DNA of 39,796 nt, from NCBI GenBank assembly GCA_013812235.1, contig JACCTU010000216.1:1-39796 (forward strand), written 5' to 3'. The position numbers were made by a program, and so were the translations under genes. This document shows, piece after piece, positions 4,213 to 15,708 of the stretch (its first letter is position 1; each line of letters starts with the position of its first letter). The notes under the pieces are model-generated. The model worked only from the letters and a program-made list of their open reading frames with translations, made no database searches and was not told where the DNA came from. This stretch comes from Actinomycetota bacterium (GTDB lineage Bacteria > Actinomycetota > Thermoleophilia > Gaiellales > Gaiellaceae).

Positions 4213-5449
4213 GAGGGGCTTACGCCCTGGTCGTCGACCCACGAGCTGACGAGCCCGCGATAGTGCTCGACGAAGTACTCCTGCTCCTGGACCGGGAACG
4301 TCGCCTTGATGGTCTGCACGAGCAGCTCGTCGAACGACGGGCCCTCGAAGTACTCGACCGTCAGGTCGTCGAGGCGCGCGAGCGACTCGGAGACGAACTC
4401 CTCGTAGCGTTCGGTCTCGAAGTACTCGTCGGCGAGCCGCCGGTACTCGCGCAGCTTCTCGTCGTAGGAGAGATCCTCGCGGTCGCCGACTGCGAAGTAT
4501 TCACGCGTGTCGACGTCGACGCGCATCGGCCGGCCGGTCACGACGCAGAAGGCGGACCAGCGCAGCAACGCGCGCATCGCCCACGGGAAGTAGTAGTGAA
4601 GCGACGTGATCGCGACGTCCGGCGAGGCGTTCGCGTAATCGATCGGCGAGGCCTCGCCGTCCTTGACGATCGTCTCGCACGAGTTGAACTCCCACCGGAA
4701 GAACGCGTTCACGAGTCGCGACACGGTCACGACCTCCCAGCCGAGCTCCGGCGAGAGGAACGCGTGCTCGACTTGGTACCGGTCGAACATCGGGCGGTCG
4801 GGCTCGAAGCGCATCACCATCGTCTCTCAGCCCCGATCGAGAGCGAGCGCGCGAAGACGTCGAAGTCCTCGAGCGCGCCCTGCACGTGCATCATCCGCTC
4901 GCCGGACTCGTCGTAGTGTCGACGAAGCTCCTCCGGGGTCGTGACCCGCGACACGCCGATCCATTGCCCGCCGTCGAACGGCTTCATGAAGAGCGGGTAG
5001 CCGACCTGCGCGCCGATCTTGGCCAACTCGAAGGGCGAGTTGTAGCGCTCGGCGGTCTCGACGAAGCGCGGGTTGCTCGGCGGGACCTTGTGGGGAATCA
5101 GCCACGTCTCCGGAACCTTCAGCCCCAGCCGCATCATCGCGCAGTAGGCGGAGTGCTTCTCCATCGACTGGAACGTGAACGGGTTGTTCAACAGGTAGAC
5201 GTCGTCCATCAGCGCGACCTTCTTCAGCCACGCGCGCGGGAGGTCGTACCACCACGCGAGCCGGTCGATCACGAGCGAGTAGCGCGGCCGTGACCGGAGG
5301 TCGAACGGCTCGTTGACGATCCGCTCGGTCGTGAGCTCGTGCTTCTCGCTGCCCCAGCGAATCGGTCCCAGCTTCGTGACGAGGGACTCGAAGGCGGAGG
5401 GCCAGTCGTCCTCGGTCCCGAGCAGCAGCCCGATCAGGTGCGACGGCAT
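4209..5449 (-). pseudogene. ATP-grasp domain protein split by a 2-nt frameshift
   Basis: Two abutting reading frames together encode one ATP-grasp ligase-like protein. The upstream part (5449 to 4814, 211 residues, beginning MPSHLIGLLLGTEDDW) contains the nucleotide-binding strand PLFMKPFDGGQWIG and ends abnormally as SLSIGAERRW. The downstream part (4820 to 4209, beginning MVMRFEPDRPMFDRYQ) has FRWEFNSCE and IDYANASPDVAITS, which suit the metal-binding C-terminal half. Removing one TC unit from the TCTCTC run at 4823-4828 restores a continuous 412-residue protein (SIGAETMVMRFEP). The start ATG shares one base with the preceding esterase stop. Family members ligate a carboxylate to an amine or thiol using ATP; the substrate here is unknown. 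Translation as two coupled polypeptides is possible, since the two frames overlap by 7 nt. Confidence 0.75.
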
Positions 5450-11981: not shown

Positions 11982-12452
11982 GTGAGGGCGTTGGTCGTCG
12001 TCTTGGGGTCGCTTGCGCTGGTCCCGTCCGCCTACGGGTGGACCGACAGCGGGCGTCAGCTTGAGCTCGACTGGCCTGCTGACGGCCGGTTGAACTCGCC
12101 GTTCGGCTGGGACGGCGGTAGGCCACACGCCGGTCTCGACATCGGCGTGCTCCGCTCGCTCGACGTCCACGCTGCAGAGGACGGCGTGGTCACGCGGGTC
12201 GGCTGGATCGCCGGCTACGACGGCTACGGAATGATCGTCGAGATCCAGCTGAACGAGCGCTACTCGAATCTCTACGCGCATCTCTCGAAGGCGACGGTGC
12301 GCGTCGGCCAGAACGTGCGCGCGGGCGATCGCCTCGGCCTCGCCGGCTGCACGGGCCGGTGCACCGGCACGCATCTGCACTTCGAGCTCCGCGACCGCGA
12401 AGTCCCCATCGATCCGATGCCGCTGATCACTGGGTACAATCTGGCCTCCTAG
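11982..12452 (+). CDS. Secreted M23 (LytM-like) metallopeptidase
   Basis: A short peptidoglycan hydrolase-type protein of 156 residues. The N-terminal 19 residues (MRALVVVLGSLALVPSAYG) form a signal peptide. The M23 zinc ligands are present: HAGLD (His and Asp) and HLHFEL (HxH). The fold is complete but there is no binding domain or coiled coil. The start is GTG 11982, without a Shine-Dalgarno sequence; TACCCT at 11966-11971 may be the -10 box, 10 nt upstream. The last base of its TAG stop is the first base of the tRNA-Val. It probably cuts cell-wall cross-bridges, or acts as a regulator if inactive. Confidence 0.87.
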   Translation: MRALVVVLGSLALVPSAYGWTDSGRQLELDWPADGRLNSPFGWDGGRPHAGLDIGVLRSLDVHAAEDGVVTRVGWIAGYDGYGMIVEIQLNERYSNLYAHLSKATVRVGQNVRAGDRLGLAGCTGRCTGTHLHFELRDREVPIDPMPLITGYNLAS

Positions 12453-12524
12453 GGCGGTTAGCTCAGTTGGGAGAGCACCAGCTCGACAAGCTGGGGGTCA
12501 CTGGTTCGAGCCCAGTACCGCCCA
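12452..12524 (+). tRNA. tRNA-Val (GAC)
   Basis: A full 73-nt cloverleaf: acceptor GGGCGGT pairs with ACCGCCC, D-stem GCTC/GAGC, anticodon stem CCAGC/GCTGG, T-stem ACTGG/CCAGT with loop TTCGAGC, discriminator A. CCA is not encoded. The anticodon loop is TCGACAA, giving anticodon GAC (valine). Position 33, almost always U, is C here. The first base overlaps the stop codon of the M23 peptidase gene. An intrinsic terminator follows at once. A 43-nt near-copy of its 3' part lies at 13901-13943. Confidence 0.9.
12481..12523 (+). repeat. tRNA 3' segment, upstream copy of a 43-nt direct repeat
   Basis: This part of the tRNA (anticodon-stem end to acceptor end) recurs at 13901-13943 with 41 of 43 identical bases. 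It is the arrangement expected of attL at a tRNA integration site, although no integrase is visible. Confidence 0.6.
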
Positions 12525-12529
12525 TCGGA

Positions 12530-12554
12530 AAGGCGCTGGAGACAGCGCCTTTTT
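12530..12554 (+). terminator. Intrinsic terminator after tRNA-Val
   Basis: Stem AGGCGCT (12531-12537) pairs perfectly with AGCGCCT (12544-12550) around a 6-nt loop and is followed by TTTT. This is the clearest Rho-independent terminator in the window. Confidence 0.85.
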
Positions 12555-12712
12555 CGTTGCCGCAGTTCGCGCGCGACAGTCATGAAACGCGCCGCCTGCA
12601 AAGCGTTTGCAAAGCACGGCCCGAGGTCCGACACGCCCGGCAAGCTGACGCCGTGGCAGTCCGCAATCCGAATGGCCATGCCGAGTCTCGTGCCGCTAAT
12701 GCCAGGCGAGGG
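12555..12712. other. Gene-poor stretch after the tRNA terminator
   Basis: I see no convincing gene. An ATG-initiated frame at 12582 (MKRAACKAFAKHGPRSDTP onward) stays open for 57 codons but resembles nothing I know and has no ribosome binding site. Base composition is slightly less GC-rich than in the flanking genes. Confidence 0.3.
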
Positions 12713-12865
12713 GTGGTCGGCCGCGTCTACTTCGAGCGCGGCCGCCCCGTCACGGTTCTGATCCGCTGGGGAACGGGCGGCGGACCGCGCAACGTCCTGA
12801 TTCGCCGCGAACGATGCCAAGCTTGTGACTCGCTCCATTTCCGCGGACTGCGCCGCGCTGCCTGA
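12713..12865 (+). pseudogene. Remnant of a small actinobacterial hypothetical protein
   Basis: From GTG 12713 the frame gives VGRVYFERGRPVTVLIRWG, then GGGPRNVLIRRE, and after a run of unrelated residues ends FRGLRRAA. I recognise the pattern GRPVTVLxRWG...GPRNVLV...RPFRGLRR from short (60-70 residue) actinobacterial proteins of unknown function. Here the middle is out of frame: the next frame reads DAKLVTRS, which would join RRE to FRGLRRAA if about one base near 12811 and two bases near 12836 were removed. So two compensating indels are likely and the gene is probably dead. The recognition is from memory of the family, so confidence is modest. Confidence 0.4.
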
Positions 12866-12888
12866 CTCGCCGAACAGGCCGAGCGTTC

Positions 12889-13590
12889 CTACGCCGACGG
12901 GCGGGCCGCCTCGGTGACGCGAGCCATCCATTGACGAGTAGCACGCGGTGAACGCAGGCGTGCCACCGCGAGATGCTGGTTCGTCGGCTGGGCGAACATG
13001 CGCGGGTATTCCCGGCGCTGTCCCCGATGTGATCTGAGCGCCGTGAGCACCCCTCTCGCGGCTGCGAGCATCTGCTTGGGCAGTCCGGTCCTTCGACCCG
13101 TCTGAGCGGCCTGCGCGCTGAGCGCCGCGGTGCGGGTGCGCGCGCGTCTTGCGAGCCGCCACAAGCTCACATACACGGGATAGTCGAGCCAGATGATTGT
13201 GTCCGCCCGAGGCCAGACCAAGTCGCGCACGGTGCGCTTGTTGCCGTCCGTGACCCAACGATCCCCTGCGATTGCCGCGCTCGTTCTCTCGCGCAGCAAG
13301 GACAGGGGCGCTCTACTGAAGTCCGGGCCGAAGTACAGCGAGTCCAGCTCGACATGGGGCACGCCGAGAGCAGCCGCAAGCTCTCGTGCGATGGTGGTCT
13401 TGCCGGACCCGGTTCGCCCAAGTATCAGAATCCGCTCGCATCCTGTCAGGGTGTTCAGGGGATCGCGCTGCTGCTGTTGGTTCGTTGCGGAATGGTTCGC
13501 AGACGCGCGCGCCGCGACCGGCGGCTCGCCTCGACGAGCATGTAGCTCAGCGCCTGTTTGCGTCTGATCTGCTTCTCGTTCGTCTGTCAT
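12889..13590 (-). CDS. P-loop adenylate-kinase-like (AAA/FlaR-type) protein
   Basis: The 233-residue protein contains Walker A GRTGSGKTT (about residue 58), followed by VPHVELDSLYFGPDF and WVTDGNKRTVRDL, then a Walker-B-like strand ADTIIWLDYP and an Arg-rich lid (RLARRARTRT). This is the layout of small adenylate-kinase/topology-modulation-like ATPases. The C-terminus YPRMFAQPTNQHLAVARLRSP fits the actinobacterial subfamily. The first 50 residues are polar, glutamine-rich and unlike the family, so translation may start later, but no good internal initiator is visible. It is the only intact gene between the tRNA and its partial copy, hence the cargo if the segment is mobile. The substrate is unknown. 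Confidence 0.7.
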   Translation of the reverse strand: MTDEREADQTQTGAELHARRGEPPVAARASANHSATNQQQQRDPLNTLTGCERILILGRTGSGKTTIARELAAALGVPHVELDSLYFGPDFSRAPLSLLRERTSAAIAGDRWVTDGNKRTVRDLVWPRADTIIWLDYPVYVSLWRLARRARTRTAALSAQAAQTGRRTGLPKQMLAAARGVLTALRSHRGQRREYPRMFAQPTNQHLAVARLRSPRATRQWMARVTEAARPSA

Positions 13591-13888
13591 TGTCCTCTAA
13601 TTCTTCGCGGGCCAACGGGGCAAGCGAGCGGACTTGGGAGGCCCTCTCAGGCTACCGGTGGAGGGTTCAGCAGCCGGAGAACGCCGGCGCTTGCAAGTGC
13701 CATGGCCTAGCTTTTGCTTGGCGCGCGGGGGCTAACGGCAGCGGCCTGCGGCGCCGAAGTACGCGAGGAAGGCGTACCAACTCGTAAAGTCGAACGCGAG
13801 GAGCATCCCGGCGAGCCTACGGGCATGCTCGCGGAGGCGGCGAAAACCCGCGCCGCTGCGCGGTTTCGCGAGCGGCGGCGGGTGGCAA
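13591..13888. other. Gene-poor stretch with a possible minus-strand gene remnant
   Basis: No intact gene is visible. On the minus strand around 13870-13730 a short frame reads FRRLREHARRLAGMLLAFDF and continues TSWYAFLAYFGAAGRCR to a stop. It looks like the end of a membrane protein, but I cannot assign it and it has no start or ribosome binding site. Confidence 0.25.
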
Positions 13889-13943
13889 GCGGCTAGGCTC
13901 GCTCGACAAGCTGGAGGTCACGGGTTCGAGCCCAGTACCGCCC
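13889..13943 (+). pseudogene. tRNA-Val remnant / second copy of the tRNA 3' repeat
   Basis: Positions 13901-13943 repeat the tRNA from its anticodon stem to the acceptor end with two changes (A for G in the variable region, G for T in the T-stem, which breaks pairing). Immediately upstream, GCGGCTAGGCTC (13889-13900) resembles the tRNA 5' part GCGGTTAGCTC. So the copy may be a whole tRNA that lost about 16 nt of the D-arm, instead of a simple attachment site. CCGCGGG followed by TTTTT comes next (13943-13953). It is not a functional tRNA. Confidence 0.6.
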
Positions 13944-13982: not shown

Positions 13983-14358
13983 GTGATTCGTCCCGACGAG
14001 CTCGAGTGGACGACGCGCGACCACGCCCAACGAGGCGCCGCGCCACGTCGCCGAGCTGAGCGAGCTCGCCGGCTTCGCACACACCCGCGCGAACGTCTGG
14101 CGCTACGACCCCGGGGCCAAGGGGCGCCGGCACACGCACACGGTCCAGGAGGAGACGTTCGTCGTCCTCGCGGGAACGCTTTCGATGTACCTCGGCGACC
14201 ACCCGGAGCGTCAGGATGTGCCTACCGGCGGACTCGTCCACGTCGAGCCGGGCACACCGCTACAGACGGCGAACCACGGCGACGAGGATCTCGTCCCCTA
14301 CATCTACGGCACTCCGCCAGAGCGCGAGCAAGCCGAGATCCTCGACTCCGCGCTGTAG
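13983..14358 (+). pseudogene. Cupin-domain protein with a +1 frameshift
   Basis: From GTG 13983 the frame reads VIRPDELEWTTRDHAQ. From 14032 the homology continues one base later: EAPRHVAELSELAGFAHTR, then GRRHTHTVQEETFVVLAGT, VPTGGLVHVEPGTPLQT and the end AEILDSAL. HTH...E...G is cupin motif 1, and the two parts together make a normal cupin of about 125 residues. Deleting the C at 14031 rejoins them. It starts 40 nt after the tRNA remnant; TACGCT at 13960-13965 could be its -10 box. A programmed shift is unlikely because no slippery sequence is present. Confidence 0.65.
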
Positions 14359-15192: not shown

Positions 15193-15708
15193 ATGAAGAA
15201 CCGTTGGCCGGTGGTGCTTTCAGTTACTGCGCTCGTCGTCGCCGTGCTCGGCGCGACACCCGTCGGGGAGGCGGCGTTGAACGCCTTGCCGCGCAACTCC
15301 GTTGGACCGCTGCAACTGAAGACCAACGCCGTGACGAGCGTGAAGGTGAAGAACGGCTCGCTTCTCCGGGCCGACTTTCGCGCCGGTCAGATCCCGGCCG
15401 GGGCGGCCGGGCCGGCGGGGCCCGCGGGGGCGCAGGGCGCTCCTGGCACGAGCGGCCTCCAGACCGTGTTCACGACGAGCCCCATCAACTCGTCGACGAC
15501 GCGCACCCTGACCGCGACCTGTCCGAGCGGCAAGGTGGCGCTCGGGGGCGGGGTGGCGGTAACTCCGACGACCGCGACCGAGGTGGCCATCACCGCGAGC
15601 TACCTCGCAAACTCGACGACGTGGACCGCGTCGGCGCAGGAGGTCAACACTCAGGCGGTGAGCTGGGGCCTGAACGTCGTCGTCATCTGCGCGCTCGTGG
15701 CGCCGTAG
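15193..15708 (+). CDS. Secreted protein with short collagen-like GPxGPxG segment
   Basis: The 171-residue protein has a signal peptide (MKNRWPVVLSVTALVVAVLG), then the segment NSVGPLQLKTNAVTSVKVK and NGSLLRADF, a pattern that recurs in secreted Thermoleophilia proteins. Next come a short collagen-like linker AGPAGPAGAQGAPG and a C-terminal domain of about 85 residues with two cysteines (ATCPSG, VVICAL) that could pair. AGAGGGGG lies just upstream of ATG 15193. It probably acts at the cell surface; function unknown. The gene stands alone between hairpins and a minus-strand gene. Confidence 0.75.
   Translation: MKNRWPVVLSVTALVVAVLGATPVGEAALNALPRNSVGPLQLKTNAVTSVKVKNGSLLRADFRAGQIPAGAAGPAGPAGAQGAPGTSGLQTVFTTSPINSSTTRTLTATCPSGKVALGGGVAVTPTTATEVAITASYLANSTTWTASAQEVNTQAVSWGLNVVVICALVAP

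Follow-up and report, generated by a model that had tools for sequence, protein, structure and literature searches.

How did the 3' half of a tRNA-Val gene come to stand a second time, 1.4 kb behind the intact gene, in a bacterium of the Gaiellaceae? The window analyzed here, a stretch of 39,796 nt, corresponds to C82, one of the 239 contigs of a metagenome-assembled genome of 1.74 Mb (79% complete). We propose, with a probability of roughly 0.88, that positions 12481 to 13900 are a scar, now lacking an integrase, of an element that targeted tRNA-Val(GAC) and was probably derived from a phage. The features of the locus are the following.

11982 to 12452, + strand: M23 peptidase gene, the conserved host neighbor upstream of the tRNA (Pfam PF01551, E = 4e-26)
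12452 to 12524, + strand: intact tRNA-Val(GAC), the one such gene, on which ARAGORN and Rfam (64.9 bits) agree
12481 to 13900, no strand: proposed scar unit of 1420 bp, from one core copy to the corresponding point of the other (direct repeat), absent from the congener G051
12529 to 12554, + strand: hairpin and T run directly after the tRNA, read from the sequence; relatives have different hairpins at the same place
12597 to 12615, no strand: tandem repeat TGCAAAGC of period 11, candidate arm-type integrase sites; relatives have period-11 repeats at similar offsets
12713 to 12865, + strand: ORF of 50 aa; 13 IMG/VR contigs encode relatives (53-68% identity)
12888 to 13676, - strand: block with 90% DNA identity to G003:C16, from another genus (blastn)
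12889 to 13590, - strand: P-loop kinase-like gene (PRK08118-like), 233 aa, putative cargo
13901 to 13943, + strand: putative displaced 3' half of tRNA-Val (attR)
15193 to 15708, + strand: conserved downstream gene, the first flank shared with G051 (68% protein identity)

The earlier note on this DNA had reported that the 3' 43 nt of the tRNA recur with two differences, and this is exactly what a search of the whole own genome returned: nt 30-72 are repeated at 13901-13943 with 41/43 identities (E = 1.2e-13), the sole further strong match to tRNA-Val in that genome. The substitutions are a G to A change at nt 44 in the variable loop and a T to G change at nt 51, which disrupts a T-stem pair; the base after the copy (equivalent to nt 73) is C, against A in tRNA-Val. 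Because the 5' half is missing and the T-stem pair is broken, the copy could not work as a tRNA. The intact gene is presumably element-derived from about nt 31 on (position 12482), which would make this part attL. Its anticodon loop reads TCGACAA and thus has C at position 33, a position that is nearly universally U in tRNAs; 45 other genomes of the family have this tRNA sequence without any change.

That the copy results from integration is suggested first by its recurrence. We searched tRNA-Val against 103 Gaiellaceae genomes and found the full gene at 100% identity in the 45 others just mentioned, and 3'-only copies in about 20 others. Most of the aligned copies (20 of 27) start at nt 29-33 and nearly all extend to nt 71-73. 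Where tRNA and copy lie on the same contig, the distance between them is about 0.2 kb (G060, G041), 2-5 kb (G083, G055, G019, G015) or 7.8 kb (G006), and one further genome, G010, has two 3' copies in tandem. A breakpoint in the anticodon arm corresponds to the 'A' subsite of tRNA islands (PMC4383910). In G041, a different partial tRNA-like sequence (L095, about 4238-4320) directly precedes the tRNA-Val 3' copy, 0.2 kb past the full tRNA.

A second reading in the earlier note took the copy for a whole tRNA that had lost part of its D-arm. In this scenario, a full tRNA-Val arising by tandem duplication would later have been stripped of its 5' half, and the kinase-like gene would have been there before or been inserted independently. 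We consider this very unlikely. The sequence ahead of the copy, GCGGCTAGGCTC, is slightly similar to the 5' end of the tRNA (Smith-Waterman p = 0.026 in 20 nt), but the likeness is not significant in 60 nt (p = 0.13) and does not appear convincing as a 5' remnant. Two full tRNA-Val genes in tandem, the case in which the note would have seen simple tRNA decay, do not occur among the matches listed for the 103 genomes. In addition, the copies of about 20 other genomes share their breakpoint nucleotides with that of the window, and integrases adjoin tRNA-Val. One observation counts against a scar, namely that both substitutions of the window's copy (nt 44 A and nt 51 G) are found, along with others, in an unrelated 3' copy (G098:C237, L133, 1424-1465) whose flanks have no homology to the window past the core; simple drift does not predict this.

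The integrases are found in at least eight relatives, as intact or broken tyrosine-integrase genes just downstream of tRNA-Val or between the tRNA and its copy. PF00589 matches with long open frames are present in G098 (421 aa), G066, G092, and G046, while those of G071, G030, G006, and G019 are truncated or broken; all eight are oriented towards the tRNA. A weak PF00589 fragment lies at the locus of G083. Furthermore, two viral contigs of IMG/VR carry the tRNA 3' core with one difference each: in L232 the core comprises nt 30-73, with a phrog_1 integrase at a distance of about 55 nt, and in L231 it is close to the contig end. Both contigs are candidate phages of these hosts, and the core sequence might more generally link phages to them; given the conservation of the tRNA, the host could also be another actinobacterium.

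Integrases of the lambda type use arm-type sites beside the att core. We found direct repeats in the window, TGCAAAGCGTTTGCAAAGC when written out (12597-12615), which are candidates for such sites. Within 250 nt after the tRNA, 12 of 35 loci have direct repeats with a period of 11 and a length of 7 nt or more, compared with 1.1 in shuffles and 1.06 in 2139 control windows. Counts for periods 8-10 and 12-14 are near their own expectations. The test was not blind, as the pattern had been spotted beforehand in these same sequences, and the roughly tenfold excess is confined to one period. Several relatives also have repeats of period 10 or 11 at -114 to -139 upstream of their 3' copies, where GTGCTACCAC-type units are common to G006 and three copies of G015. 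The resemblance to a lambda-type att site is that short direct repeats, spaced by roughly one turn of DNA, stand beside the core on the side of the element and, in several relatives, do so at both ends. The window differs by having the left pair only, with no repeat upstream of its 3' copy; these are candidate sites known from sequence, and by analogy an integrase would bind them.

The order of host genes gives the frame in which the unit lies. In several genera it runs M23 peptidase, tRNA-Val, a variable stretch, and thrS-infC-rplT, and the peptidase gene stands immediately upstream of tRNA-Val in more than 10 relatives. The earlier note had predicted that a relative lacking the segment would have one tRNA and continue directly behind the copy. 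This holds at the level of gene order: G051, the sole congener, has a single tRNA-Val without a copy, and its orthologue of the gene at 15193-15708 follows about 0.65 kb past the tRNA. At base level, the G051 flank is not alignable, and the flank right of the window's copy aligns to no relative's empty site. From about 19.8 kb onward the window is colinear with G051:C56. Right behind the displaced tRNA half lies a cupin gene (13985-14357). Its DNA is about 86% identical to that of genes at other places in G056 and G050, but a 2-nt difference shifts its reading frame in the window.

Inside the unit, little is left of a phage. No integrase was found in 12525-13900, as the earlier note had already remarked, and no phage structural, lysis, or replication genes were found in the segment. 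The sole phage-like item is the 50-aa ORF, whose relatives are mainly in viral contigs, some of which encode RusA, DnaB, and primase close by, and in just 2 of the 102 other family genomes. It has no match in INPHARED or PHROGs. We regard this ORF as the remnant of a small phage-associated gene. The hairpin behind the tRNA is probably a terminator supplied by the element; a consensus terminator scan did not list it, though hairpin and T run are visible. A blastp comparison of the segment's frames with ORFs at the tRNA-Val loci of relatives gave no match, and tblastx matches of the segment to relatives were discarded as noise typical of high G+C DNA.

The P-loop kinase-like gene that the earlier note had placed in the segment is real. 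Its protein matches the PRK08118 'DNA topology modulation' model weakly (E = 2e-17, far below the model cut-off) and is 87% identical to a protein of G003:C16, with the next best homologues at 42%. The 90% identical DNA block takes in the gene plus about 90 nt upstream. Because the DNA is this similar, whereas the next best proteins reach 42% and the thrS genes of the two genomes are 71% identical, these comparisons indicate that the gene was recently transferred. It may have arrived with the element rather than later. We also considered the block as an integron gene cassette, but attC-like core motifs were not seen by eye at its ends.

Our preferred reading, integration followed by decay, is thus supported because 3'-only copies recur, integrases adjoin tRNA-Val, viral contigs carry the core, and arm-type repeats as well as a near-empty site in the congener are present. 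The viral relatives of the 50-aa ORF and the foreign kinase gene likewise count for it, and the missing integrase, right arm, and structural phage genes count against it, as does the failure of the copy's right flank to align. In this history, a tyrosine integrase would have exchanged strands in the anticodon loop of tRNA-Val. The element, which we infer to have been a phage, would have carried its own tRNA 3' half (and probably the terminator), so that the tRNA at 12452-12524 remained complete while the 3' half originally belonging to the host was pushed out to 13901-13943. Nearly all phage genes would later have been lost by deletion, along with the integrase and the arm sites on the right, so that what survives is the repeats of the left arm, a remnant of one phage gene, and the kinase-like cargo gene.

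The unit works or worked like the tRNA-targeted genomic islands of the Islander collection (PMC4383910), with which it shares a restored tRNA at one end and, at the other, a displaced fragment that points the same way. As in islands using the anticodon-loop subsite, the window's copy begins at nt 30, and relatives have integrases beside the same tRNA. Unlike these islands, the unit spans 1.4 kb only and has no integrase; because the integrase by which tRNA islands are judged is missing, we classify it as a relic and not as an active island. Compared with prophage remnants at tRNA genes, it has in common the small ORF and the existence of viral contigs with the same core, but it retains no gene for structure, lysis, or replication. 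Across the Gaiellaceae, a soil lineage with hardly any cultured members, tRNA-Val(GAC) is a recurrent integration hot spot for such elements, with the M23 peptidase gene on one side and the thrS operon on the other. A tRNA-borne element scar is an ordinary, known kind of finding, and a literature search (Gaiellales, integrase, tRNA) returned no earlier description of integration at this tRNA-Val site. Such a hot spot suggests a reason why many Gaiellaceae assemblies break at tRNA-Val. In G080:C39, tRNA-Val is followed after 46 nt by a heliorhodopsin gene (L080, 4922-6103, - strand).

The unit could instead still be mobile, as a mini-element that has no integrase of its own, depends on those of related elements acting in trans, and carries the kinase-like gene as cargo. 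The anticodon-loop region is identical in both cores, the left pair of arm repeats is intact, and units of similarly small size exist in G060 and G041, all of which would suit such mobility. We nevertheless give it little credence: the right arm repeats are absent, a second copy of the unit is not known, and the kinase locus of G003 has neither a tRNA nor a tRNA-Val copy. The own genome contains no other tRNA-Val copy and, in answer to the earlier suggestion of an integrase acting on this tRNA from elsewhere, no integrase near one. A wider version, in which integrase-less mini-elements of 0.2-2 kb persist family-wide at the tRNA-Val(GAC) 3' end, long-lived and still movable in trans, and single cargo genes such as the kinase travel as tiny att-bounded units, strikes us as equally improbable. 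An assembly artefact joined at the repeat is least likely of all, although the metagenome assembly is fragmented and incomplete and contigs of many relatives stop at or near tRNA-Val, since the longest exact run shared by tRNA and copy (21 nt) is too short for usual k-mer joins and the outer flanks on both sides match the family gene order.

As a possible helper for the unit, we considered and rejected an intact integrase on another contig of the own genome (C146, 386 aa), near which a tRNA-Val copy is absent. In that contig (L135), the integrase gene at 479-1639 is followed at about 1700-2050 by frames resembling translated partial tRNA 3' halves; ARAGORN called no tRNA in this stretch, which is possibly another tRNA att site of the same genome.
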